Shown here: piece by piece, positions 25,680 through 52,800 of the stretch | Layout of the letters: each line of letters begins with the position of its first letter | Position numbering within the stretch: the stretch's first letter is position 1 | Origin: Branchiostoma floridae | Lineage: Eukaryota; Chordata; Leptocardii; Amphioxiformes; Branchiostomatidae | DNA length: 64,000 bases | Direction of reading: 5' to 3' | Assembly (NCBI RefSeq): GCF_000003815.2 | Contig: NC_049986.1 | Location: 9,837,114 to 9,901,113 of the forward strand | The notes under the pieces: model-generated | Told to the model about the DNA's origin: nothing | What the model saw: only the letters and a program-made list of their open reading frames with translations | The model's database searches: none | Position numbers and translations under genes: made by a program

Positions 25680-26070
25680 TCTCATTTTTTTTAAACCTGA
25701 CAAAGACCACTCAGAGGACTGATCTAGTCTATGTGGACAGGTGGTCACCATAGACAGGAGTCTTAATGCTTGTGTCAATGGGAAAATTATCTAAGGTACC
25801 ACCTAGAAGTGGTCATATTGGCCAGGTGGTCCTTTTATACAATGTTGAAATTCTTGACTGAGGGTCTGTGTGCTCTTTTCCGTAAGGCATAGGCAGGCCT
25901 TTTTAATTTCCCGTAATTCGTAGGGAAGCTATTTTATTTCACGTAATTCGTAGTGGGATGAAACGTAAGGCATTGGTAGCTTTCGTGAATTTAACGTAAA
26001 GCATAGTCAGCCATCCCGAATTTAGCGTAAAGCATTGTCATGACCCCCCATGCAGACCCTCTTGACTGTA
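25680..26070. repeat. CAGTCAAACCTGT-related repeat with CGTAAGGCAT reiterations
   Basis: The left part matches 10,925-11,095 inverted. The right part (25,880-26,045) reiterates CGTAAGGCAT and CGTAATTCGTAG in both orientations. Confidence 0.5.
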
Positions 26071-26681
26071 AGTAATTTATATATACTCGTCAAGGGCACA
26101 TGTTTTACCACAAGGTGTCCAATGGATAGAAGTCTGAGTTACTGATAATTCTTTTATAAATTTTGTTATCTATTAATTGACATCCCGCTGAGAAATTGTG
26201 ATAACTTTTCCACCAAATCTAAACAATTTTTGCATTTCTTAGATTTCAATTTCAATTTGTCACTATTTTGCGATTAATATCCTACATGGAATTTTCCCCG
26301 ACCATACCACTATACCTTTTCCTGGCATGAATTGATGATGGGATTTGGAAACTGATTTCCAAGTTGCACGAATTTTATCTGCGACACCGCTGGATCTAAA
26401 GTCTATGAGATTCAAGATTTGTACGATTAGACATTTCCGCGACTCCGTAGGATAAGCCACAAAAGAAGTGCGTCCTGTAAGGACAGATAACACACTTCCT
26501 TCTTAAATGACCCTTAAAGATCTCCATGTCCAAGTGTCTTCATCATTTCAAGTCATCCTTGCAACCAACAACGTTCAAAACAAAGACCATGTGCTTGACG
26601 TTTGAATCAATTGTGATTTACACGTGGACAGATATATATATACCGTGGATTGTACAAAACTGAGGATCAAACAGTACTCAC

Positions 26682-26802
26682 CCATTTTGTCCCTGGCCGC
26701 TTCTAAGCGCTGGATCTGATTCTCCAAGTAGATGATAGCAGCTACAAAGAGTAGCGCCATGAGCAGCTGGTACCTCGTCTGCATGGTTCTTGAGAACCCC
26801 AT
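26682..26802 (-). CDS. HS2ST1: Heparan sulfate 2-O-sulfotransferase, first coding exon (partial gene)
   Basis: The exon encodes 40 residues plus one base, beginning MGFSRTMQTRYQ, and is followed by a consensus donor (gtgagt at 26,681 downward). It has the layout of the HS2ST N-terminus: a short basic cytosolic tail, a signal anchor at about residues 13-27, then the stem start LENQIQRLEAARDKM, which closely matches the vertebrate LENQIQKLEESR segment. The family is a type II Golgi enzyme that transfers sulfate from PAPS to the 2-O position of iduronic acid in heparan sulfate. The ATG is the first in frame and lies next to the CpG-rich promoter. The catalytic exons (PAPS-binding motifs) were not found in the window and should lie to the left of position 1. 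Identification rests on only 40 residues but is supported by the neighbour: HS2ST1 and SELENOF are also divergent neighbours in human. Confidence 0.92.
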
Positions 26803-26995
26803 ATATGAAGATTCCTCCCCGGCCGAAGCCTTCGTAGCGGGGACGTCGAAGGTGTAGGCGGCGGGATCGGGACGAGGGCCCGCCGGGACGGCAATGACGG
26901 TGATTTTCCCGTCTTTTGTGAGCCGCTAGAGCGCCGAGAAGTTGGGACTACGACTGTTGTGCACGGCGCCTGCAGTTCCAGGTCATCTCAGGAAA

Positions 26996-27003
26996 CCGGA
27001 AGT
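26996..27003 (+). promoter_or_regulatory. ETS-family core site
   Basis: CCGGAAGT, in the context AACCGGAAGTGG, lies mid-way in the divergent promoter. This is the high-affinity core of ETS factors such as GABPA/ELK, which commonly drive divergent housekeeping gene pairs. Binding is inferred. Confidence 0.6.
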
Positions 27004-27039
27004 GGATACCCACTGTTTTGGGTCACGGTATATCTCAGA

Positions 27040-27049
27040 TCTCGCGAGA
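27040..27049. promoter_or_regulatory. TCTCGCGAGA palindrome (BANP/ZBTB33-type motif)
   Basis: A perfect 10-bp TCTCGCGAGA palindrome sits in the divergent promoter. In vertebrates this motif is bound by BANP in a methylation-sensitive way and has also been linked to Kaiso/ZBTB33. It is enriched in TATA-less CpG-island promoters. Function in this organism is inferred. Confidence 0.65.
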
Positions 27050-27476
27050 AATTAGCCGGAAAAGAGAATAAATTATGGAAAGTTCGGGGGGTAAATCGTT
27101 GCTTTTGTACACGTGGTGGAATTCTCTAGCGATGAGAGAAGGAATGTTTGAGACAGCTGTGCAGGTGTCAGTTGATACAGATGCTAAGAGATGTTTATGC
27201 ACGAAGCTGCCATGTTTATGAAATGAACATGATGATGTTGACAAGCTATGTCTCATTTAGAACAGGGGAAATACAGCTCATAGGTTTTTTATTTTTTCCT
27301 TACGAATAATACGTTTTCCAACAAACAATACAATCAAACTATACATAAGTATTACTTTATAATAGAACCCATTTTGATTTGCCTCTTTTACATCAATTAA
27401 AAAGTTAATTATTTAACACTTTTCATCCGCAACCCTTTTCTGTATTGGTATCGCCCAATATCCGTTTCATTGCAAG

Positions 27477-27521
27477 ATGGCGCCCGCCAGCTACTTTCTG
27501 TGGCTGGTCCTTCTCTTTTTA
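27477..27521 (+). CDS. SELENOF: SELENOF exon 1 (signal peptide)
   Basis: It encodes MAPASYFLWLVLLFL and ends in phase 0 at donor gtaagt. The start is the first ATG after the CpG-rich promoter and gives a hydrophobic leader that continues into exon 2. Confidence 0.9.
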
Positions 27522-30500
27522 GTAAGTTTTCTGCTTATTTTCGTCCCCCAAGTACTCATTGACAATATATGAATATATTTAAATATGTATTCAATGGTGT
27601 GAGTGTATAGTTTTGACGCTGCGTGTCTATTTAGGACAGGAGACGGGCAAAAATGACACAAACTTCCGTGACCACTGACTGTTGACGATGACGTGGAAAT
27701 ATACCATATGCTAAACACACAGTGTTTATGAACCTTAATTTGCATACCGCCTGTAGCATATGTATACATGTGCTGTCAGATATTCTTGATTAATCCCTGC
27801 TGTACAAAGTTTAATGCGCTGCGCCTGAACTCTGATCCTTTTTCTACTGTACTCGATCCACATGGCACCTTCTGATAGATATGTAAGAGCGCCCCTTGTG
27901 TTTGAAAGCAGCACTGCAAGAGATGAAAAAAGTTACTTGCAACAAGGAGGTTAAAAATCACCTTTTTTTAACCTCCTTGAAAGGACCAAGACTCCGTCCA
28001 ACCCCCCTCCACACCAAACTATAGCTAGCCATTACCATTATGCTAAAATAAAAACCTGGCTAGAACCCTGGAGTCACTACATGCATGCTACTGTATTAGC
28101 ATTCTGCGTGCTGATCTGATGTCCATGAAATACCACAAAACTCAGTTCCATTAACTAAAATGAATTTACACTACAGTAACTACTGTTTTTCTGTCCTCGC
28201 AGCTAACCTTAGTGACCTGTGAGTACACATCAGAGAAGTGCCAGGACCTGGGCTTCACCACCAACCTCCTCTGTAGCTCCTGCGATGAGCTCAAACAGTT
28301 CGAGCTGCAGTCGCTCGAGGACAACTGCAGACAGTGTTGTCAACAAGATAATCACAGCAGTACGCAACAGGTATCGTGTGATTTGTTTACCTATTTGTGT
28401 ACAGTGTGATAGCAATAGTAAACATTTCAGACAAAGTTCTCCTGAAACCATATGCCAATGATGATATGGTATGTACAGCTATAGTATAAAAGGTTTGGGT
28501 ACAAAAGTACTACTTTACAAACAATGTTTTTAAACATTTTTGATTCAGAGTCTTTATCCAGATACCATACACTTACATGTACATTGTAACCTCAGAATGT
28601 ACATTGCAAGGCAAAATTGAAACTAGAAAGGTAATATTTGCAAGCAAATACAGAATGTTACCTTCACATGTTGTAGTCTAACACTGGCAACTGTTTTGTT
28701 CATTCTTATTTGAACACATTTCTAAATGTAGTTACCCGAGCCCCTCTAGATCTGACATTTGCTACATTACGTAACCGAACACCACATGGTGCCTGCTACT
28801 TTACCGGTTACCATGGTGACAGCCGTCTGGTCCAGGTCGTTGACCTTATTTGTGCGGAGAAGAAGAAGAAACAAAGCAAAAACAATATGTTCCCTCCTGT
28901 GAAGGTAACATAAAAAGAAAAGTATATCATTCGGTAGTTTGATGCATGTTTATATTTTTCTTCCAGTTGTTCCCTGGAGCATTGTTAGAAGTATGTGGAT
29001 GAAAGTTGGGGAGATGGCCCCAGGTCCAAGGTATGTACAAATATATTGAGTTGATACAATGTTTTTATAATGTTTTACCCTTCAGGGCTTGAAATACTGT
29101 AAATGCATTTAAGTTTGCGGGGATTTAATTTCGCGGTAGTGGGAAAATGGACTTTTCGCTGTGGTTTTAATTTCGCGGTAGCACCATGCACTGTAATGTC
29201 TTACTGTTTATGGAAAAAATGTTCGCGGTGGCTTTAAATTCGCGGTGAAGTGGCTGCCGCGAAAAACGCGAACATTAATCCACCGCGAACATTTCTGCAT
29301 TTACAGTACTAGCCATGGGTGCATACACACTTTTGTGCACTCAAAATTGCAGCTCTGCACCAATTTTGTTCTGTATGTAGTATGAGTGCACTTAGATGAT
29401 TGTGTGATGTTACATATATAACTTAAGTGTGCAATTGTATACATACATGTACCACTGATGTGTTAACAGCCGGAACAAAGTTGACTGACTGGATTGTACT
29501 TCCCACAACCATATTTTTCAGTACTGAAAATCAGTTGACTTCGCATTGCTTTCTGACATGTTGTTCAGCAAAATGCTAAAAATAAGTTGCAAATGTCTAT
29601 CTGAAAAGAGATTTTTAGATTCAGTGTATTCACTGTTCCGGTGCCAAAATTTTACAGTTCATACCCATAAGAAACTAAGATAAGGACCTTGTCCTAATTT
29701 TGTATTAGGCCTAGGAAAAAAATGTTGTTTTTCCTGTTTCAGACCTGAAAAAATTAGGGTTGGCAGGAATTATCTTTTTTTTCTTGTAATTTTTTTTAAG
29801 CTGCTCAAAACTTAAGACTAGGTGATACATATTACAATACAGTTTAAAAAAGTAAACTGAAATTGATGAGGACACCTGTCTTTCAATGCCAAACGTTAAT
29901 TTTGTGAGTAATAGATACATTATCATTGATTAGATATGACAAGCAGTGTCTGTCATGTGTGGTAACATTCTTTCCTAGGCCTTAACAGCACACTGGCAAA
30001 ATCTCAGTCCATCATCTCAGTCCATCATCAGTATCAGTAGTACCTCCCCCCCCCCCCCCCTTACCTACAGGCATTTTTACAGAGACAAAAATCCATCACA
30101 TCCCTGAGTAGTGGATCAATATGACCCGCCGGCTGTATCTCACCCAATCTTCTCTCCCCGGTGGACTTAATTAGCTATGGGGAAATAATTAGGGAGGCTA
30201 TTTCACAGGTAATCCCATACCTTCTCAGCGGACAGGTGGGGGAATACAGGTTAAGATTCAAGCAAAGCCTTAATCATCTAGCAAGCACAGGGTAAGATTA
30301 GTAAGAGTTTTAGAGCACCATGTAAAATGGATGTCGGATGAAACGATTGTCCGGAAGGCGTTGGAAGCATTTAATGTTTCTCGAGATTGATGGTAATTGA
30401 AAAATGCAAATTGAATATGTTTATGCCAAAAGGAAAATGTCATAAGGATATGCATTTTTTTTTCGCTTTTAATTTTTTTTTCAATTCTTTTTTGTTGATA

Positions 30501-33500
30501 ATTTGGTTAGGTATTCTTAACCAAGATATTATGCAAATGCAATGAAATGTGTAAACATGATATGTGCATACATGTAACTACATCATAAAAGAATATAATT
30601 ACAGTCACTCACAGAGGCTATGATATTCCAATAACATAGCCAGGTGTTAACAAAAAATTTATGGATGCATACCATAATACAAGATGTTTGACCTTTATTT
30701 GACCCCTATATGTCTTTACATGCANNNNNNNNNNNNNNNNNNNNNNNNNNNNNNNNNNNNNNNNNNNNNNNNNNNNNNNNNNNNNNNNNNNNNNNNNNNN
30801 NNNNNNNNNNNNNNNNNNNNNNNNAAAATCAGACATATACCAAGTACTGAAGTAGTACTAATGTCTGAAATATTTCACTGAACAGACTGCATCTATTCAG
30901 TTTTAAATTTGTAATAATGTCTATCATTCTGACCCTTGCAAATGCTCATTAAGCTCGTCCTTAATTATATTTGGAAGGTTTAAATTTTGATCCAGCAATA
31001 GATTTACTAGTAGATATTTTTCTGCAGGAATAAACAAATGCAACAGAAAGTAGACAATGATGTATAGACCTACATCCAAAGTATCCACTAAAAGTGTTGA
31101 TATGGAGATGTTATTGCTGTTAAGGGCCTTAAGGGAGGGGAGAAACGCGAATTTTTATGACCTGATGACATTCCTCTTACCGTGCTGTATAATGGATGAT
31201 GGCATCAGTGGGTCAGGGTATTCCCGGCTCAAAAAAAGATAAGTCCAGAAGACGCCTTAAGCTGTATGGTCGTCAGCAACATTAAGGTCAAGAAATATGC
31301 GCCATCAAGTATTGGAGATACATGAGTTGTTGTTTTTTTGTGAGATTATCAAAGAGGTTCTTGCCAACCCCAGTGTTATATTATGAATATGAGGGCCATT
31401 TAGGATAATTGTAAGATAGTTTATCATGTAATTGATAATGCCCTGTGAATTTTATTCTTCAATATTAAATAATTGATTTTTTTAAAAAGCAACATTATGG
31501 TGTTTTTGTTGAGTCCTCTACCAAAATTTTGTTATTTAAAATGAGACAAACTTGAAAGAAAATTCATGAAGACCTTTCTTTGGTAAAAAGATGTAGATGT
31601 AGTTAAAGAAATATACATTATTATTTAGAAAAACGCTGTTCAACAATATACTACAGGCAACAAAGAAGAACAAGACGAAGTAATGGGGAAATCTTATTGT
31701 ATTTTCAAGTTGATACTCATATCTCTTGACTCAAATATACTAGTATGTATTTTCCTCTCGAATGTAAGTTTTATCATTTGCTCTTTTGAAAAGATTTGAG
31801 TCGTTAGTTCATGCAAATTGATAATCCTTGGTCTAAAAGTAGGTCGTTTAAATTTCTAATGAGAATTCATTGCGATAGTTTGATTCTTGACATCTCTACG
31901 CCCCGTTGAGTCCAGTAAATCCCTCCGTTTTAGGACTGGTGTGCACGCTGAATTTAAAACATGTGTGTCGGGACGTCAAAGAATTGTTAGTCCAACCGCG
32001 AATCAGACGGCGATCGCACGTCGCTGGTGTCAATTTGATGAATTGGCTTTCTGTGTCAGGATAATTTTGGTCCCTTGGCGTTTGCGCATTTTTCCTACGG
32101 AAAACGTGGTCCGGCTGTTTGACAGATCGTGTCGCACACGTGAATGATGTCATCAGACAGACCGCTCGGTGGAACGACCGGACGGTTCCCAGTTCGTGTC
32201 ACGCCCGTGTTTTACGCTAAAAGCTTTTAAAGTGGCAGAAATGGTGGTATTGGGAGACATGGCCATATAACATTTGTAGCATTAGTCCTGGAATGGTGTA
32301 CCTTTTTTTGCGCTGTCACATTCGCATCAGGGCTGTTTCCAGCTTGCAATCTTTTTTTTTTTGTCCAACTTTGTTGTCTTTGTTGTCAAAACTATAGTAC
32401 TAGTAGTAGTAGACGATGAATTTTCAATCTTTTAGCAAGCTGAATTAGAATAGATAAAGAACTTCACTAAGTGTTTTTAATCTTCTTGCATTATAATCTT
32501 CAATTTCTGTTACAAAGAGCTAGATAGTTGCTTGATAAAGTACACTTACTATTTTGTTATACTTTAAATTTTCTTAAAAAAGTCCAGAGCAAGTGTCCCA
32601 TGTATATTATATAAACTTCGGACTTGTCAAAGTTTAAGCCTCCAGCTGGTTTTATGACGTCATATTCCAACGGGAACATGTAACGACCAGGGCCAATGTC
32701 ACCCCGAAGGTAGCACGACACTCGCAATCCCCTCTCTTTATTGAATTCCGCTTCCCCTTTGCCCCGAAAATCCCGTCATTTCCCGGCGTAATCCCATCAC
32801 CACCCCACCAGTGGTATCTATTGATTCCCGTATGTCCCCGAGATTGGTGGCTCAGCGGGGGATCTGATTCCCCGGATCGCATCGGTGCCCTGAGTAACGT
32901 CGTTATATCGGGGAGGGCAAGGGGACAAGGTGAAGTCTGGATTGCGACTTTGCGTGCACCCGATGGGGTTTCCCATGGGACATTTCAAGGGCTTACAGTT
33001 ATTCAATGTGCAACCAAGGAGCTTTTATATCAATAAAAGCTCCTTGGTACAACTGTTTTTATACATCAAGGGTGTCTTTTTTTAAAGGCTGTGTGATGTT
33101 CAGATAACTGTTTGATAGTATTAAATTTCAAACCCAAAGCTAATGTGCCCAAAATTGGTTGAATTTCTAATTCCATTAGTTTTGTTTCGAGTCAGATACA
33201 GTGTCAAGCAGCATGTGAAAAAGGAACAGATTTGAAATACATTGACAAGGTTTTTTTTTGTCGAACAACATGTCTTGTGTAGTTTATGAGTAGTACAAAT
33301 ATGAATACATGATACATAGTATCAATAGCACTTTCTTTGCTGCTTACAGCTGCATTCCCAAATGTTAAGTGTTTACATTATCTGCATAATTATTAATACT
33401 GTACATACATGTATATGAATGCTTTACATTGGCACTGCATCTGTAAGCAGCAACACCTACAAAATGGATGCTGCAGTGTACTGTAAGGCCACAGCAAGTA

Positions 33501-36500
33501 AATTTTATGGATGACATCAGCGCGTGCATTAATTTTCGACTGATTTGAGAAAAAAAAACAATTTTTTTCTTCTGCAGGGATGGTCAACATGACGATAAAG
33601 TACCAAAATGAGCAAATATATTATGTTGTAGCCTAATAATTGTACTTGTAGAAGTGACACTTGGGAGGTACCCAGAACTGTAGTTGTAGAAATGAAACTT
33701 ATTGGATAGTTGTGAAAGTGACACCAATATGGAAGCTATGAGTGTGGTTAACAACTTTGTTGATTCCAGTCTACCACACTAGTGTCACTTTTACCACACC
33801 AGTACATGTCTTGAATACAGGTATGAATGCCTTGTTGGCTCTGATACCATGTTTTGTCCCTTTGATTCTTTTTACAACAGTCATCACAACTTTATGGTGC
33901 CTATTTTTCTCTTCGCCAAGAAGAGTATGAGATTGCTTGACTTGCGTCTGTATGTAGGTCAACAGCATATAACTCGAGAAATTGTGGATGGAACTTTGTG
34001 ATTTTTGGTAGGTGTGTAGCAGTTGTCGAAAGGAATGCCAAGTTTGAAAACGGTTTACCTGGCGTTTTCCTACGGTACTGCAGCGAGCTCGGTATGTTTC
34101 GTGCGGTTTGTTTTTGGCAGCATAAGTCAAAATCTAGCTGGGCGATTTTCACGAAAATTGGTAGGTGTGTAGCGGTTTTGGAGAGGAAGGTCAAGTGCGA
34201 AAATGGTTTACCTGGCTCTTACCTATGGTGCTGTAGCGGGATTTGTATGTAAGTGCGTTTGTCTGTAAGCAAGATAACTCGAGAACCCTTAAATGGATCC
34301 TGATTATATTTGTAAGGTGGATTGGGGTTAGAAAAACGAAGGTCAAGTTCGATAATGGGCACCCTAGTGGCTGCCTAAGGTACTGCAGCAAAACTTTTAA
34401 TTTTGGCACTTCGTGTTCTTGACATGCTGTGGTCATGATTTTTGAGTGGTAGATAGCCCTTGAAACAGAGAGTAAGTGCTGTGAGTTTGGACCCCCTAGC
34501 GGCTTTTTGGGAACTGCAGGCACCGATTTCCGTTCAAACTTTGGACGAGGATAACTTGAGAACGTGTAAACAGATCATCAGGATTTTCGGTATGTAGATA
34601 GAATGAGTGATGACTTATACAATGTAATACTAATTATGCAAATCAGTAGCTTATTTGCATAATTAATGAGGAAAGTTCATAAATCCATGCCAACAGCATA
34701 TAACTCAAGAAGCTGTGTATGGATTTTCATGATATTTAGTATTTAAGTAGCGGCTGCGGAAAGGAAGGTCGTGTTCGAAAATAGTTGACGTAGCATTTTC
34801 CGTTAGGACGGTAGCGGGCCGAGTGTGTGCGTCCTTTTGTTTGTGGAATGCATAACTCGAGAAGCCTTGAAAAAATCCTGATGATATTTGGTAGGTGGGT
34901 AGGGGTCAGGAAAACGAAGATAAATTATGATAGTGGGCCCCCTAGCGGCTTCCTAAGGTACTGCAGCAAAACTTATTAACAGAAATAAACTGTGCTCTAT
35001 ATATCTCATTTTGACCTATATCTATGGACACAGCTGTTATACAGATGGTTTGCTGGAGGAAGCCCTTAGACTGGGGACAAAGTCTAAATTGACAAGCATG
35101 AAATTCTGATTGACCAGGGATGCTACCAGGTCATCTGTCAGGTCACAGTCTGGTTTTGGTAATGTTTGTGTGTTTGTGAGGAACAATAAGACCTTAAAGT
35201 CTTAAATAAAGGCATGATTATTTGGCGAAGAGATGGGTTCGTTGAACTCTAGTTTAAAATGTAGCGATCTTGTTTTTTTTTCACCAATCTTGTTTTTTTT
35301 CGCCGTATCACACTATTTTTGCAGTCTGCAGAGGATGTCATCCATAAAATTTACTTGCTGTGGCCTTATGTGAACCTGTCAGAATTACCCTGAGGAAGGT
35401 GACAATGTTTGTTGAATAAAAAACACTAGATACATACAAAGAATCTTGATATCCTGAAGTTGAGACAACTGTTTCAACACAATAAAATACATTAATTTTT
35501 TTTTATGTCTCTATGTTTGAAATCACTGAAAGAAATGTGCACGTGAACATCAATCCGTTGCAGATATTTGAGAACTTACAGTTTTCAGTTTATATTTAGA
35601 GCATCAGGATATACTAAAATCTTCAAACTAGTAGATTCTTAACCCACACACAATTTTATGAACAACATCCTTCATCGTGTTTTCATACCTGTTGGCTTGA
35701 AACACTAGAGCAGACATTACTAGGGGTGGGTACTGGTACAAAAAATTCAGGTCCAGGTTCGGTTCAGGTCCAGAGGATCAGGTCCAGGTCCGGACCTGAA
35801 CCAGGACCTTATTCATTATGTGAAGACTAATGTGCTCACGACAATGGTCCATTTCACTACAAACAAATCTATTCGACTCACACTGGCGTTTTAAAATCCT
35901 ACAACGCTAACTGCCTCTGTACTATTGACTGTAAACCTCTGTAGAAGTGACTCTAAACTTAACTCTACTTCGCTCGTGTTATTTTTTTCGACCGGTTAGC
36001 ACCAAAATGTGTGAATGCCCGATCAAGTAATCTGTATATTTCCTAATCGGTCCAACATCCGGTCCACCTGGTTTTTCCGGACCGGTCCGATGAGAAAAAC
36101 GGTTTTGTACTGGTACCCACCCCTAGACATTACAAGCCAGTGAAGTTTTATCATGAACCATCTTGAAAATCACCAGGTGTTTGGAACTCCACAAAACCCC
36201 CCAAAATGATTGGTTTGACCTTCAGAGCAACTGAATTTTCATAGCGGGGCATTGCGCTGCTATAAACAGGCATAAAGAAATAATAGGAAATTTGGGGGTT
36301 CAACTTCATGACTGTCATTGCACATCCCATCAGATTTTATGACTGCGATGATGTCAGGCGAGATGAAACGTGTATTTTTACAGCTGATTTGTTTCCCTGG
36401 GTGTCAAACTTGGCATTCAACGCTGTCAGCATTCATTGCACTGGATCCGTGCCTTGTTTTACGAAGTGGAATCTCCAAACAGATGTCGCAAAAATTGTAA

Positions 36501-39047
36501 TCTTTCTTGACTGCCTCAGCTTTTTTGGCAGCCACTTCCAACCCCAACATATGTAGTAAAAAAATGCAATTTTCTTGTACTTGCAACATCTGCTTGGAGA
36601 TGTTTATGCTTGATAATGTCTGTTTGAAATGCTTTTTTGAAGCACTTTTGAAAAGAGCTAGGAGAATTTCCCCTGTACATTGAACCCGTAAAATACTGTA
36701 CATAAGTTATGAACATGTAGCATCTGTATTTTGTCATGACCAGTGGAAGATCTAGAGTTATTCTTCAGTGAGTTAAGCTGAATCTATTTCACTTAATTTG
36801 CTGTCTTCCTTCTCCAGCTTTCGTGAAGAGCGATAGGCCCAGGCAGTTTCCAGGTTTGAAGATCAAGGTAAGAAGAACTTCAGCATCTAATTTTTTTTCA
36901 ACACATAGTTGTCATATATCAAAGACTGTGATGTAAATAGCTTGGATTTAGAGGTCATTCCTGGGTACCTGGAGCTACTGTACCTGAGGTCTAAAAATAG
37001 ATATGGGACCTTTCAATTTTTATGCTACATTAGAAATGTATATAAAATAGATGGGATGAACAGTGTCTTTCAGCAAGGTGTTGATCTTAGCTTGACTAAA
37101 TTACCACTCTAGCAACCCTTCCACCTACGTCAGGACCATAGAATAAACCCTAATAGCAAGACATTGTGTTAGCTGAAGTGAACCCTCACTGCATGTTGCA
37201 TAACAAATTCAAAACACACAGTTCAAGAAATTGATTATAGTTTGTTAAGACTATAAGAGACATGGTGAGTGATTCTCTTTGTGTGGGCACAAAGCTTAAA
37301 TTGCACAACTCTATGTATGGTTGACTTTGAATTTGAAATGAGGAAGCTACAGTAACTGTATTTCCAAATTGAAAGGGACTGTGACTCAAAGTGGAAAAAA
37401 GCCATCCTCATTTCCAATATAATGGCTATAGTGTTTAACTTTCCTCTGAGGTATTGATGTAGAAATATGGACATTGATCTAACACCAGAAAGAGGTACGC
37501 CTCAATCCAGATGCTGAAATCTCTGTCCATCGACTCGTACAAGGATTTCCTATAGTTCTGGTACTTAGAGATCTCTCGGGCCCTAGTTATCGAGGACCGA
37601 CGATTGGTTCAAAATTTAAGGCCACGGACCCACATGTACTCGATATCACAATCCCATAACTCATTGACCATATATACAGGACTGGAAGTAAAGTAGTTTC
37701 TGCATTTTACTTTAGATTCATTCATTTTTTGTAGAGACTTTGATTGTATGGGTGTCATCCTCTAGATCTGGCAAACCCAAAAATCATAGGAGTGTGCGAA
37801 TAAAAAAAAGTTTGCCCCCCCCCCCCCAAAAAAAATGTTGCCTTCATTGTGACATCTAAGTGGTCAGGAAGGTTTAACAAATGACTGAACACAGAATACT
37901 GTGTACTGTACTTAATAAAGTCTTTATTTTCATTCTTTCACATCTTCCTCTTTGACTTTGGGACTAACTTGGGCATTCTACACCTTCTGACTCATTCTGA
38001 AGCTATTTTCGTTGCTTTGGCTCTTGCAATTTACAGTATATATTTGCTCATTTGACCAGTCGACCGGTGCAATGGCCTAGTGGGTAGAGTGTTCGCCTTG
38101 CATTCGGTAGGTCGTGAGTTCAAACCCCGGCCGAGTCATACCATACTTTAAAAATGGTACATGCTTCTTTCTCTGCTTAGCACTCAGCATTCGGGAAAGA
38201 GTATGGAAGTTGAACACACACCACTACCAGTGGACTAGCCCCCTGCTGTAGTGATTGCGTTGTGTGGCCCAAGGGCTACTGGAAGGGAGATGGGCACCGC
38301 CCTATGCGCCATCAGGCGCGGGAAGGAACTTTGACTTTTTTTGTTTGCTCATTTTGCAGATGCCTCGGATGATTTACAGTATGGTCAAACTTTTTTGCAA
38401 GGTCCTAAAATTGATACACATACAGTTATTATCCATATCAGGGTTGGACAAGTTTTCTAGAATTCACTTGTCCTATCGGCAGGTACATGTGAAATTTACT
38501 TGTCTTGCCCTAACGAACTTTTTGCTTGCCCGAAATTCAAATGTCATTTTTCTTTTAAAAAAGTATATATTTCCACTTCCATTCAGATGGAATTCTTGTT
38601 ATTGGCTGTAGTTTTCTGTGTTGACCATTGCTTGATGCCAAGACTGTGGAAAGTAGAAAGTATATAACTCTATATAACTGAATATTACTCAACGGAATCA
38701 TCTAACTTGCCTGGTTGGGCAAGTGGGGTAGGACATGCACTTGCCCGATCGGCATATTCACTTGCTCTGGACAATAGGGCTAATGGTCTTGCCTAACCCT
38801 GCATATATAAGCTTGGCCTTATGCATGAACAAAGCCTTCAGCGGTGCCTACATTCAATTTGTAATGTTATTAATAACCAACTTTGTGTATCTGTTTTCCC
38901 CATTTCTGTGTGTAGTACGTCCGAGGTGCTGATCCTATCCTGAAGATGCTGGACCATAAGGACCAGGTGGTCGAGATCCTCTCTATCGAGAAGTGGGACA
39001 CTGACAATGTCGAGGAGTTCCTGTCGGAGAAGCTACAGAAGTTATAA
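27477..39047 (+). CDS. SELENOF: SELENOF, 15 kDa selenoprotein (five coding exons, UGA-Sec)
   Basis: Joining 27,477-27,521, 28,203-28,370, 28,967-29,030, 36,818-36,867 and 38,916-39,047 gives a 152-residue protein with all phases matching and GT-AG introns. Order: ER signal peptide (MAPASYFLWLVLLFL onward); cysteine-rich domain with Cys 28, 39, 42, 57, 60 and 61; then a thioredoxin-like domain whose redox motif is Cys81-Gly82-Sec83; then the conserved C-terminus ending DNVEEFLSEKLQKL. In vertebrates the cysteine-rich part binds UDP-glucose:glycoprotein glucosyltransferase in the ER lumen, and the protein acts in glycoprotein folding quality control. Human SELENOF is slightly longer (165 residues) and also has five exons. 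An ordinary gene caller would stop at the UGA at 29,000. The gene is head to head with HS2ST and shares its promoter. Confidence 0.97.
27522..28202 (+). other. SELENOF intron 1
   Basis: A 681-bp intron. A short stretch near 28,020-28,080 resembles the palindromic element at 17,085-17,900. Nothing else was recognised. Confidence 0.8.
28203..28370 (+). CDS. SELENOF: SELENOF exon 2 (cysteine-rich domain)
   Basis: The acceptor is tcctcgcag and the donor gtatcg. The exon is 56 codons, phase 0 at both ends, and carries the six cysteines of the UGGT-binding region, including the CSSC and CRQCC clusters (Cys39/42 and Cys57/60/61). Confidence 0.95.
28371..28966 (+). other. SELENOF intron 2
   Basis: A 596-bp intron containing the repeat at about 28,725-28,862, which is related to the segment at the left edge of the window. 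No exon was recognised. Confidence 0.8.
28725..28862. repeat. Repeat pair member (SELENOF intron 2)
   Basis: Contains TTGCTACATTACGTAACCG and CCATGGTGACAGCCGTCTGG, matching 35-145 in the same orientation. Confidence 0.5.
28967..29030 (+). CDS. SELENOF: SELENOF exon 3 (Sec-containing redox motif)
   Basis: The acceptor is tcttccag and the donor gtatgt; the exon is 64 nt and ends in phase 1. It encodes LFPGALLEVCG-Sec-KLGRWPQVQ, matching the most conserved block of the family. Confidence 0.96.
29000..29002 (+). other. In-frame UGA selenocysteine codon
   Basis: TGA follows GTA TGT GGA and precedes AAG TTG GGG, at exactly the Sec position of SELENOF. The reading frame continues with conserved family sequence through two more exons, so the codon is read through rather than terminating. 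Confidence 0.95.
29095..29308. mobile_element. CGCGGT palindromic MITE, copy 2
   Basis: Same family, inverted relative to copy 1. It is inserted in a sequence beginning CAGGGCTTGAAA and continuing CCATGGGTGCATACAC, which itself looks like a MITE of the CAGGG-ended group. Lies in SELENOF intron 3, 65 bp after exon 3. Confidence 0.85.
30725..30824. other. Assembly gap (100 N)
   Basis: One hundred N characters in SELENOF intron 3; the round size suggests a gap of unknown length. Confidence 1.
31990..32215. promoter_or_regulatory. GC-rich island in SELENOF intron 3
   Basis: CpG-rich, with CACACGTGAATGATGTCATC (E-box CACGTG and a TGATGTCA CRE-like motif). Single copy within the window. Confidence 0.3.
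32645..33000. promoter_or_regulatory. GC-rich island in SELENOF intron 3
   Basis: About 350 bp with reiterated CCCGTCATTTCCCGGCG-like and CCCCGGATCG segments and a TGACGTCA palindrome near 32,656. Open on both strands but unrecognised. Confidence 0.35.
33013..33048. repeat. Perfect 16-bp hairpin
   Basis: ACCAAGGAGCTTTTAT, loop ATCA, then the exact inverse. It lies at the right flank of a GC-rich island in SELENOF intron 3. Confidence 0.85.
33955..34990 (+). repeat. Degenerate array related to the 150-bp repeat
   Basis: The anchors ATAACTCGAGAA and variants recur near 33,968, 34,273, 34,548, 34,696 and 34,852, with TTTGGTAGGTGTGTAG and CCTGGCGTTTTCCTACGG blocks that are the reverse complement of the 57-58.5 kb unit. 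It is strongly diverged between copies. Confidence 0.7.
35722..36125. mobile_element. ACCGGT-rich element, copy 2 (inverted)
   Basis: Reads GGGGTGGGTACTGGTACA at the left and GGTACCCACCCCTAG at the right, the reverse complement arrangement of 6,943-7,374. In SELENOF intron 3. Confidence 0.8.
36818..36867 (+). CDS. SELENOF: SELENOF exon 4
   Basis: The acceptor is ccttctccag and the donor gtaaga; the exon is 50 nt. With the phase-1 base from exon 3 it encodes AFVKSDRPRQFPGLKIK, close to human AFVRSDKPKLFRGLQIK. Confidence 0.95.
38061..38335 (+). mobile_element. tRNA-derived SINE
   Basis: Box A-like TGGCCTAGTGGGTAGAGTG and box B-like GAGTTCAAACCCCG lie about 30 nt apart at the 5' end, followed by an unrelated body of about 200 bp. 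Lies in SELENOF intron 4. Confidence 0.8.
38439..38801. mobile_element. CAGGG-ended MITE (CTTGCCC interior)
   Basis: Begins CAGGGTTGGACAAG and ends CTTGCCTAACCCTG. The interior repeats CACTTGTC and CTTGCCC. It lies 115 bp upstream of SELENOF exon 5. Confidence 0.7.
38916..39047 (+). CDS. SELENOF: SELENOF exon 5 with stop
   Basis: The acceptor is ctgtgtgtag. The exon has 43 codons plus TAA, running from YVRGADPILKMLD to FLSEKLQKL. This is the C-terminal half of the thioredoxin-like fold. Confidence 0.96.
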   Translation, partial: YVRGADPILKMLDHKDQVVEILSIEKWDTDNVEEFLSEKLQKL

Positions 39048-41689: not shown

Positions 41690-43190
41690 ACTGACCGAGC
41701 TTGCAGGTATGCTTTTTGTCTGCAACTTAGCCAAATTTTCATGTTGAAAGAAAACTTGAACAGTGAGAATTTGTATTGCGAATGACTGAAGATGGATTGG
41801 AAGAAGGGATTTCCATCAATCCTTAGATGGCAAGCTCTGCTTCAGGCCTCTAGCTCTATGGGGAGTCTGTGGCAGCTTCTACTCTCTATTCATGGAGTTT
41901 TTAACAACAATTGCTGCCGGGTATAAAAGTTATTTTCAGGGATAAGATCCAATGTCACAGCTGGGAAACATTACATAGTAGGTCGATAGATAATCATGTC
42001 TCGGAGCTAGATCCATGAAAATGTGGGACGGCGCACTTCATTTACAACTGCAGCCATATAACTTCAACAAAGCAGTATTTATTGTCATTTATTGCTGTCT
42101 GTGCCAAATCTAGGTTGCAATTTTTCAGTTGAGTCAGGGAATGGGCAAATTATGATATGGGTGGGTCACCTTGTGAATGTTTTGTTTATGATGATAACTA
42201 ATGTCTAATGTTTCCGCTGCGTTTGCCAATTGATGTTGAATTGCCTTTTTTGACATTGATGCCCTTGCTTGACAGAGTATTGAGTTCGGCGCAATATTAG
42301 GCTTGTTTCCACATGCTTGTATTCTGTCTAATTAATTCAGCAACATGCCTTAGAGCATAATTAGCATATTAAAGAATTTTTGGAAGTAAAAAAAAATTTA
42401 CAGCCCCCCCCTCCACCCAGCACACATAAAGGCATATTTGTAAGTTTATATGCCATTTTTCCCCCATACAGTTTACATGATTGTACAATTTGTATTGTTT
42501 ATTAGATTCTCAGTACATTTTCAAATAGGCTGACCTTCATCACTCAATGTCATAAACAAACTTCATTTGCTGTTTCATGAATATAGTCTACCTGTAGATA
42601 TGTATCAAGCAAAACATAACACGTATAAATATGTAAACTATGGTTTATGAGAATTGAGTTAGGCACAGATACATGTACCAAGTCTATATGCAGTATGCCA
42701 CTGAATTAGATAAAGAGCAAGAAACTTACTTATGTGTTGACTAAGATAGATAATGTTAACTATATAGGACATACATAATTTGAGATTATTATAGAATGAA
42801 AAAAGTCACTCATATTGATGTGTTTCTTGTGGTAATGGCTGAACCAAAAGTACTTATTTCACAAAATGACAACTTTCATGGCTATTCTGTTGATTCTGTC
42901 TGCAGATAGGGTGTTGTTAATTGCAGTGTGGCACTTGAATGAAGGCCTTGCAGCAAACCTACTTGGTATGCATGGCCGGATGTACCGTGTCGCTTCATGT
43001 AATTCAAAAACATATCAGCAGACAGGATCTAAGATTATCTGTGATCAGTTGCTTAGTTTCCTAATTGTATTAATCCCTTCCTAGATATCCTATAGTTAGT
43101 CTTAAGGGAGTCACAAAATGCAATAAATTATTCAATAATACTTGACATTGTCATTGTGTTGTTTATTTTTGCACTCATTCTGTTCAATAT
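41690..43190. other. No recognised feature
   Basis: AT-rich intergenic DNA between two tandem repeats. No gene recognised. Confidence 0.55.
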
Positions 43191-49160: not shown

Positions 49161-49369
49161 AAACAAAGAGTTTTTTAGTGGAATGCATCTGGTAAATCAT
49201 GTATTGTGCTGCTATAACAGGATTTCTTAAGGTAATTTGCATGCTTTAGGGGCGCAGTCATCCTATAGTGTGATATGGAAGGGTCAATGGTGATGGAGAT
49301 TGCTTTAGTAGGAGCCACTGTTGTCATTGCTGTATCAGTTGTACCCACGGTCCTATGGGTACTCCCGGG

Positions 49370-49612
49370 ATCCACTAGATTCACGGGATCCACTAGATTC
49401 ACGGGATTCACTAGTTTCACGGGATTCACTAGTTTCACTAGATTCACGGGATTCACTAGTTTCACGGGATTCACTAGTTTCACGGGATTCACTAGTTTCA
49501 CTAGATTCACGGGATTCACTAGTTTCGCTAGATTCACGGGATTCACTAGTTTCACTAGATTCACGGGATTCACTAGTCACTAGTTTCACTAGATTCACGG
49601 GATTCACTACTT
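49370..49612 (-). repeat. 9-bp minisatellite, potentially coding [S/T][S/R]E
   Basis: Runs of attcacggg, attcactag and tttcac variants in 9-bp steps, often paired as 18 bp. On the minus strand, in one frame, they encode Ser/Thr-Ser/Arg-Glu triplets (SESRESSETS style). The array directly abuts the 27-bp array and lies downstream of the current VWA stop codon. Confidence 0.9.
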
Positions 49613-49880
49613 CCGTTGCCGTTGCCAGCACCGTTGTTTCCGCTACCCGTTGCCAGCACCGTTGTTTCCGTTGCCGTTGCCAGCACCGTTGTTTCCGTTG
49701 CCGTTGCCAGCACCGTTGTTTCCGTTGCCGTTGCCAGCACCGTTGTTTCCGTTGCCGTTGCCAGCACCGTTGTTTCCGTTGCCGTTGCCAGCACCGTTGT
49801 TTCCGTTGCCGTTGCCAGCACCGTTGTTTCCGTTGCCGTTGCCAGCACCGTTGTTTCCGTTACCATTGCCGCCACCGTTG
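49613..49880 (-). repeat. 27-bp coding minisatellite
   Basis: About nine copies of a 27-bp unit (minus strand AACGGCAACGGAAACAAC plus GGTGCTGGC). Most copies are identical. The unit length is a multiple of three, so copy number can change without loss of frame. Confidence 0.95.
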
Positions 49881-49884
49881 CCAG
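49643..49884 (-). CDS. VWA gene exon 8 (Gly/Asn nonapeptide repeats)
   Basis: The acceptor attcacag at 49,886-49,885 begins an open exon of N-G-N-G-N-N-G-A-G repeats encoded by a 27-bp minisatellite. The phase fits exon 7 exactly (C plus CT gives Pro). The frame ends at a TAG (49,645-49,643) created by a one-base excess within one repeat unit. Without that slip the frame would enter a second repeat of Ser/Arg/Glu. Splicing to exon 7 is inferred from phase and consensus. Confidence 0.7.
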
Positions 49885-52800
49885 CTGTGAATTTACATAA
49901 AAGACAGAGCTTAGTCAAATTTTGTGTTTCTACCTTCCATAATCGTATTCTACAATCAAAGTTTTTAATTACATCATGAGGACCCCCCCCCCCCCCACAC
50001 ACACACAGACACACACAAACACACTAGCGGAAAAGCACCACGCTTTGTTTTTGGACCATGTGTTCCCTTACCCCATGTGTTCCCTTACCCTGGAGAGCAA
50101 GCAGATCCTCTGGCAAGCGTAAAATTCTGATTGACTAGGGATGCTACAAGTTGGATATCATGTGGCCCCTTCTTTCCACATTTTAGGCGAAGACATTCTA
50201 GAATAGGTAAATATCAATGCGCACGCGGATGTCATTAAACAAAATAAGTCTGTTTGGCCTTATACATACCATCTATACAATACAAACAAACATAGGGAAC
50301 GCTTTAGAAGCACATTTGTACACTGTACTTAGTGATACGTACGGCACTGGTCTTGCAGTATTCGGTCGTAAAGAGCGCATGGGTCGGTGTCGTCGAAAAC
50401 ATTGGGGGGGATCTCAGCGATGTCCAAGAGCACTGCGCTGTTCACATTGGGTCCAATCCCGACGCTGTACAGGGTGATGCCATCGTCTCGTGCTGCGTTA
50501 GCTTCTGCTTCGTGGTCATCCAGTGGCTAGAAAGAGAATGACAAAGGCTGTATATAGTCTGTGCATAGGCTATGTATTTGCTGATCACAGCAGGGTCATT
50601 ATGTGTAGGACTGAGGTTAACTCTAGGTCATCTAGGTCAAGGAAAAGGCTCTGTACACGACTTTCCTCATTCCTCCTTGGTGTCAAAATGGGCACATGAC
50701 TTCGGTTGGGGACGGAAATGGCGGTGGAAGGAAAGAGAGATGGTCTTAACCTCCCGGAAAAGTGCCCTGGCCACAGTCATCATAGATAAAAATATACTTG
50801 GAAACGCCATGGACCTGCTTTGACCTATTCATTCCTCAGACATGTACTACAGAACAAAGTATCTATCGGCCGATTTAAGTCAGTGAGCTTGAAGTGACAT
50901 GGCATTTTCTATCATGATATAGGGCAATGACACTAATTGATGCTTGCGCAAAAGTATTGCTTTTTAAAATTAACAGAAGATGTGTTTTTCTTTGAAAATG
51001 TCGGCATTTTTGCGGCTGTAGTCTACAGGTTAGGGTTGTAGGCTTTTTATTCTGTTGAAAAACCAGACTTTTAAGTCTGTTTTGTGTGCCTGGAACACTA
51101 GAAAGAAGTTTGTAGTTTTTTTTGTAGCTGTCATGGGGTCAAACGTCACCAGGTTGCGCTTGGCTGCACATCACTTGCGTTCCAGCGGTCAGAATGTTTC
51201 CAAAAGTTTAAAATGGACATTTTAGAGGCCGGGCTACCTGTCAATGTTAGTTTTTCAGGGACGAAACTTCAGGTAGGTGACTTTTGACTGCTTCTTTTTG
51301 CCATTATTCACAATATGAGGATAAGGAAGTCTGGTTGGTGTTCACTGCTCAATATGCCCGAGTCTAAGGGATTGCGCAAGGTTCGCAGATTTGCCGAGCA
51401 CATTAGATATATCATAGCATAGTTTCCGGGCAAAAATTAAGCTCGACCCTGGCAAAGTTCTTATAAGTGGTAAATGATTGGACTTTCAACTAGTAGTTAG
51501 ATCTGAAAATACTTTTGGTAATTAATGCAAAAGTGCCATAACTCTTCTAAGTAATGACTGGACTTTCGACTGTGTAAGTTAGTTGAAGGTATACATAACC
51601 AAGTATAGATTATATAAATGTGGCATTGATTTTCATAGTCCATTCAAAAGTGTCATGATCCATGATTCTCCTACGTGGTAAATGATTTGACATTGAACAT
51701 CGTGACCTGTGTGAGTTAGTTACACAACACACAACCGAGCATAGATTACCTAGATGTGAACAATGATATTTTGACAATATTGCAATCTGAAAGTACTGTC
51801 GACTACATATCTCTAATTAGCTAAGTAAATTTGTACCGTGGATAAAAGTGAACTATCGTTATACAAAGTAGAAGAAAATTTCATACATAGCCTTGGATGT
51901 AGCCGTCTGTCAGAACTACCGCCACTCGACGAGCCCCATTACGCCATGTCAAAGCAGTCTAAAGAAAACAGAACAAGAAACAGTGGTTAGAGAAAACTTT
52001 CCTTTACAGGGCTCGAAATACCACCTACATACATGTATGCAGGTTAGTGCAGGTAAGATTGGAGCTGTGCAGGTATTTCTGATGTCTACCTGCACCTAAC
52101 CTGCACTGGTCCATGTGCTGAGTTTTATAGATAGATGCCCCATAATGTAGGTGTATGTGAATTGTTATTAACTGCATTGACCGTTTACACCTATCATTTA
52201 TTTATTTACCTATTTGGGTATAAAAGAAAACATAGCAATGGTTCCTCAACAATATTAGTATGTCATAAATTCAGAGTGGTGCAGGTAGGATTTGTCTGGT
52301 GCAAGTAACTTTCATTGTTACCTGCACCAGTGCAGGTATGCAGAAAAAAGTATTTCGAACTCTGCTTTATAGCTGATTCTCTCGGGGTTCAGGCGCTTCC
52401 AATCCAGTTCATTGAAAACCAGAGAACATGCCATAAAAAATATTCACGGCTACAAGCTATTTCACACTTCTGCATAAGCATGCGCGGCGACAGGCATTGT
52501 GGGTAATATGCCTTAGGTGAATGCCCCTAAGTTGCCACTATGCTGGCAAACAGTCCTTTCTTCGTCCTTTTCTCAATTTGCATAATAATGTCCAGATGTT
52601 CTTTGTTTGTGTCTCAGGTGCCTTCACTTTTGACATTTATATACTATCAAAAATTCCTGTGGTTGCGCATGACTACTCGCAACTATGAATGTACTTATTG
52701 CACATTTACTATTTTATAGATCGGCATTCTTACCGTGTCTCTCATGTAGCGAATAGCCGGGCCGGTTCGGGTTATTCCCCCCTGCTGCATCAAGTAGTGG

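Follow-up and report, generated by a model that had tools for sequence, protein, structure and literature searches.

Head-to-head HS2ST and SELENOF genes in the lancelet Branchiostoma floridae and the short region between their start codons

The human genes HS2ST1 and SELENOF are adjacent and divergent at 1p22.3, with starts close together, and have head-to-head counterparts in the lancelet Branchiostoma floridae. This raises the question of whether the arrangement was inherited from a chordate ancestor and, if so, whether a common control region has kept the two genes together. The initial annotation of the locus had placed the first exons of HS2ST (minus strand) and SELENOF (plus strand) 674 bp apart in divergent orientation, and all of its coordinates proved correct. 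The window, the whole stretch of DNA that was analyzed, is 64 kb long (C8 9837114-9901113); its coordinates are used throughout, and positions called window-scale extend the same numbering beyond its ends, with 0 as the base before window base 1. The neighborhood analyzed comprised 284,000 bases around the pair, of which 21,580 read N and 262,420 were readable, and the 100 kb to the left of the window were searched for HS2ST exons. Human proteins (HS2ST1, SELENOF, SH3GLB1, LMO4, and FPGS) served as queries.

Coding exon 1 of HS2ST (26682-26802, minus strand, 121 nt) encodes the cytoplasmic tail, the membrane anchor, and the start of the stem, and has a phase 1 donor, GTGAGT. A local search of the 64-kb window with human HS2ST1 matched this exon to residues 1-41 (46% identity, E 2e-5; match 26802-26683) and found no catalytic exons within the window. 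The 100 kb to the left contained six further exons on the same strand and in the correct order: exon 2 (window-scale -603 to -832, 230 nt), exon 3 (-16539 to -16624, 86 nt), exon 4 (-34095 to -34233, 139 nt), exon 5 (-45441 to -45538, 98 nt), exon 6 (-49144 to -49301, 158 nt), and exon 7 (-54554 to -54774, 221 nt). All six introns are GT-AG, with phases 1, 0, 2, 0, 2, and 1, and the coding span is ~81.6 kb (C8:9782339-9863915), including an intron 1 of ~27.3 kb. The joined protein of 350 aa is 57.7% identical to human HS2ST1. Its sole PDB matches at E<=0.001 were two sequences, both from crystal structures of HS2ST1 (E 4e-137 and 2e-135), and in Pfam it matched Sulfotransfer_2 (PF03567, E 2e-20), with a second match, PF00685, below the cutoff. 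The protein contains both YNRVPKTASTS of the PAPS-loop and FYHGH of the catalytic site. We also considered that exon 1 might be a chance match and rejected this because the remaining exons follow it in the expected order and with matching phases. HS2ST is thus a complete seven-exon gene as judged from its predicted splices, and the exon facing SELENOF appears to join the catalytic exons to its left, a connection on which the initial annotation had made its reading depend.

Sulfotransferase domains occur on several contigs of this genome: a six-frame, exon-by-exon search of 513,431,437 bases in 431 contigs returned 48 Sulfotransfer_2 matches. Fifteen of these lie on C1 between 30.2 and 34.2 Mb, which suggests a local expansion of the family.

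SELENOF reads to the right through five coding exons. Exon 1 (27477-27521, plus strand, 45 nt) consists of an ATG and a hydrophobic leader, taken by eye for a signal peptide, followed by a GTAAGT donor in a frame that fits exon 2; it had no similarity support in the local search with human SELENOF, whose signal peptide failed to align. The same query matched exons 2-5 in the window with E values from 2e-15 to 0.005: exon 2 (28203-28370, 168 nt) encodes the cysteine-rich domain, exon 3 (28967-29030, 64 nt) carries an in-frame TGA at 29000-29002, and exons 4 (36818-36867, 50 nt) and 5 (38916-39047, 132 nt) complete the frame up to a TAA stop, all on the plus strand. Joined, the exons encode 152 residues and contain this one in-frame TGA; over a stretch of 131 residues the protein shares 61% identity with human SELENOF. 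The TGA stands in the context VCG(TGA)KLG, that is, VCGUKLG with its CGUK motif, and we read it as a selenocysteine codon. The protein matched Sep15_SelM in Pfam (PF08806, E 2e-31) and, in PDB, Sep15 (E 3e-26, 95.5 bits) and selenoprotein M (SelM; 26.2 bits). From these data SELENOF is predicted to be a complete five-exon gene (27477-39047), its exon 1 being assigned by ATG, leader, donor, and frame. On the sequence evidence, neither the HS2ST nor the SELENOF matches are due to chance.

A SECIS element lies at 42930-42991 on the same strand, ~3.9 kb 3' of the SELENOF stop; it scored 37.5 bits with Rfam SECIS_1, whose gathering score is 35. Just beyond it is the only plus-strand AATAAA from the stop to 43200 (43122-43127), the likely SELENOF polyadenylation signal. 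The distance between stop and SECIS implies a 3' untranslated region that would be either long or spliced, and it may be spliced. A good-looking acceptor-like site, TCTGTCTGCAG, ends at 42905, between the stop and the SECIS.

The neighbors of the pair differ from those in human. SH3GLB1 and LMO4, the 1p22 neighbors of the human pair, were sought across the 284 kb with human queries and gave no match at E<=0.1. The right flank holds von Willebrand A (VWA), collagen-like, and CAP-like open reading frames (ORFs), followed by MAP2K7 and FPGS, and the left flank holds C-type-lectin-like ORFs, with the collagen-like and lectin-like assignments made largely by eye. Because SH3GLB1 and LMO4 are absent nearby, the pair appears to be conserved without its surroundings. 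The initial annotation had proposed that the arrangement predates vertebrates and has resisted rearrangement. With lancelet and human as the two lineages compared, the former is plausible and the differing flanks are consistent with the latter. In human, the SH3GLB1/SELENOF locus has been placed at 1p22.3, and a single intergenic variant is reported to act in kidney glomeruli as an eQTL of SELENOF and of HS2ST1 alike (PMC11464144). A shared eQTL fits linked control of the two genes; plain proximity can also explain it.

Several other features of the neighborhood are recorded here. The next recognized domain after SELENOF is a VWA domain in an ORF at 50332-50526 (minus strand; Pfam E 2e-5), and the collagen-like ORFs, seen by eye, lie further right near 100.7-101.8 kb. 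Tandem-repeat tracts at 49312-50023 are open on both strands (CRCQHRCFR and NGNNGAG) and by eye are low-complexity sequence, not a gene. On the left, two near-identical C-type-lectin-like ORFs on the plus strand (window-scale -81755 to -81561 and -62371 to -62138) lie ~19 kb apart and are perhaps a recent local duplication; one of them had a weak, sub-cutoff Pfam match to the UL45 lectin-like family. An open frame of 564 aa (window-scale -86635 to -84944, minus strand) looks by eye like a retroelement reverse transcriptase.

The 674 bp between the two start codons (26803-27476) fall into two parts. The HS2ST half (26803-27060) has 58.5% G+C and 26 CpG, and two 250-bp steps, with starts at 26751 and 26801, rank within the twelve most CpG-rich of the window; the SELENOF half (27061-27476) has 34.9% G+C and 10 CpG. 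Thirteen plus-strand ATGs occur at 27075-27248, followed by an ATG-free stretch of 226 bp (27251-27476) that directly precedes the SELENOF start codon and is the putative site of SELENOF transcription start. A single simple CpG-island promoter was rejected because composition and ATG content divide the gap. Among repeats in 26000-28500 we found nothing that explains the gap, and a scan of the window with ARAGORN yielded no tRNA genes.

Three motifs that are single-copy in the window lie in or at the edge of the gap. The palindromic CGCG/BANP element TCTCGCGAGA (27040-27049) has an expectation of 0.02 in the window and was contained in 2 of 100 shuffles. To its left, CCGGAAGT (26996-27003, plus strand), which we take to be an ETS-type site, is expected 0.65 times in the window by chance and is not significant alone. 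Over the SELENOF start codon lies AAGATGGCGCC (27474-27484, plus strand), presumably a YY1-type site, which was found in none of 100 shuffles; its shorter core, ATGGCGSC, has an expectation of 1.26 and again is not significant alone. The joint chance of the three motifs falling in the gap, ~1e-6, overstates the case because the patterns were chosen after reading the sequence. No NRF1-type site (TGCGCATGCGC, one mismatch allowed) was found in the window. The gap also contains one minus-strand TATAAA (27356-27361), which could mark the HS2ST start instead, though TATAAA is frequent, with 288 occurrences across the region.

The CGCG element could be compared with its surroundings. TCTCGCGAGA occurs only twice in the 262,420 readable bases, both times between divergent genes. 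The second copy, at window-scale 125744, lies between the start codons of a MAP2K7-like kinase (125461, minus strand; PDB MAP2K7, E 5e-49) and an FPGS-like gene (125774, plus strand; best E 2e-23 with human FPGS), which are head to head and 312 bp apart (C8 9962574-9962887); both first exons were assigned by eye. At least 11 local matches to human FPGS along the gene identify the latter, while its pieces had no match in PDB and two of the pieces had none in Pfam. Two random sites would fall in both gaps with a chance of ~1e-5, a post hoc figure, as the second pair was recognized after the site had been seen. The other patterns are less selective: CCGGAAGT has two copies and AAGATGGCG four in the 262 kb, not only at recognized gene starts. 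TCTCGCGAGA was absent from the 27,855 bases that make up eight sulfotransferase-gene loci elsewhere in this genome, where only ~0.2 copies would be expected at the local density.

In published work on this element in vertebrate cells, a single copy of TCTCGCGAGA was reported to be enough to drive reporters in both directions, and most starts lay 20-70 nt from it on one strand or the other (PMC6192621). BANP acts through the CGCG motif, and zebrafish mutants have reduced chromatin accessibility (PMC9363121). Of the human elements, the former study assigns only 22 (5%) to bidirectional coding pairs, compared with 364 (80%) to unidirectional coding promoters. Because of this last figure, a pair cannot be concluded from a CGCG element alone.

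We favor, with modest confidence, the explanation that this is an ancestral chordate divergent pair in which a single short regulatory region serves the starts of both HS2ST and SELENOF. The CpG-rich half of the gap would be opened by the CGCG/BANP element at 27040 together with the ETS-type site, and HS2ST transcription would start ~20-70 nt to the left of the element (26970-27020). The same open region would support a second, YY1-type core promoter, with the SELENOF start within 27251-27476. By our own arithmetic the two starts would then be ~230-510 bp apart, similar to amphioxus pairs with one or two nucleosomes between them. Because a break in the gap would be harmful to HS2ST, to SELENOF, or to both, the pair would have remained intact as the sequence around it was rearranged. 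If SELENOF were transcribed from near the CGCG element, as many as 13 ATGs would precede its start codon in the transcript; this favors a separate YY1-type start and suggests that SELENOF is transcribed from a start of its own at 27.25-27.48 kb. The region thus probably contains two core promoters. The shared promoter that the initial annotation had envisaged survives in part, in that the sequence of the gap includes a CGCG element; a separate core promoter for SELENOF is suggested, however, by the YY1-type site and by the 13 ATGs upstream. Moreover, the A+T-rich SELENOF half is unlike a CpG-island promoter and counts against the shared-region view.

For the same reason, the upstream ATGs that a SELENOF start beside it would entail, the CGCG element may serve HS2ST alone. 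This leads to the main alternative, to which we assign considerable weight though less than an even chance, namely that two independent promoters merely lie side by side. The pair would still come from the chordate ancestor, and would persist without shared control either because any break within 674 bp damages one promoter or simply owing to a slow pace of rearrangement in lancelet genomes. The two-part gap, with its CpG-rich CGCG/ETS side toward HS2ST and its A+T-rich YY1-type side toward SELENOF, agrees with independent promoters, as do the 226-bp ATG-free stretch and the unidirectional annotation of most human CGCG elements (PMC6192621). Against them stand the reported firing of these elements in both directions (PMC6192621) and the second nearby CGCG element, which likewise sits in a divergent gap.

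Two further explanations question the premises of both. The adjacency might have arisen separately in lancelets and vertebrates, as the differing neighbors (MAP2K7, FPGS, VWA, and collagen-like ORFs here; other genes at human 1p22) would allow. Independent formation of so close a pair is very unlikely, however: with some 20,000 genes (PMC6292497), we calculate that any particular head-to-head pairing would form by chance ~1 time in 40,000, and we regard separate origin as hardly credible. Only slightly less improbable is an error in the first exons, in that 26682-26802, which lies 27 kb from exon 2, could be a pseudo-exon or belong to a minor alternative start, or SELENOF could begin with another exon. 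The ~27.3-kb HS2ST intron 1, the lack of a similarity match for SELENOF exon 1, and the prediction of both first splices from sequence leave some room for this. Yet the HS2ST exon resembles its human counterpart all the way through the anchor, ends in a canonical donor, and agrees exactly in phase with exon 2, and a search of 164 kb gave no second match to human residues 1-41 at E<0.5; for SELENOF, 27477-27521 has ATG, hydrophobic leader, GTAAGT donor, and the right frame.

A broader conjecture is that the CGCG/BANP element is a chordate-ancestral organizer of divergent pairs, one that held HS2ST and SELENOF together from before the vertebrates to humans whereas MAP2K7 and FPGS were separated in the human lineage, where they are on different chromosomes. 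We think this unlikely on present evidence, but the CGCG link is the aspect that most deserves follow-up. It raises the question of whether an element described as conserved in vertebrates is possibly older.

In the literature searched we found no description of HS2ST/SELENOF as a conserved pair and no paper on heparan sulfate 2-O-sulfotransferase in amphioxus or on amphioxus microsynteny; neither HS2ST1 nor SEP15 occurs in the main text of PMC3815023. According to a title cited in PMC11464144, a developmental syndrome in humans results from bi-allelic variants of HS2ST1, and a control region common to HS2ST1 and SELENOF could affect the reading of variants there. The locus offers a testable case of a promoter region possibly holding two unrelated secretory-pathway genes together through more than 500 million years.

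The lancelet pair resembles human HS2ST1/SELENOF in being adjacent and divergent, and differs in its flanks, since neither SH3GLB1 nor LMO4 lies nearby. With the CGCG/BANP CpG-island promoters (PMC6192621, PMC9363121) it shares an exact TCTCGCGAGA at a CpG-rich edge between divergent genes, but here the gap also has a minus-strand TATAAA, and the genome is that of a lancelet, whereas those promoters were reported as conserved in vertebrates (PMC6192621, a paper whose main text does not contain the word "amphioxus"). The closest parallel is provided by amphioxus itself, where 25% of neighboring genes (3,950 of 15,884) are in bidirectional promoters, with 0, 1, or 2 nucleosomes between the starts, and where YY1 motifs have been plotted at ubiquitous promoters (PMC6292497). 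The HS2ST/SELENOF pair is like the ancestral bidirectional promoters of that study in having protein-coding neighbors <1 kb apart, a YY1-type site, and a pairing apparently kept since the chordate ancestor; its spacing of 674 bp is measured between start codons. Conserved divergent pairs are already well known in amphioxus, and HS2ST/SELENOF is not exceptional among them. Of the 372 putatively ancestral bidirectional pairs followed there, the majority were lost in vertebrates (PMC6292497; Marletaz et al., 2018), and HS2ST/SELENOF would, by contrast, be a retained pair.
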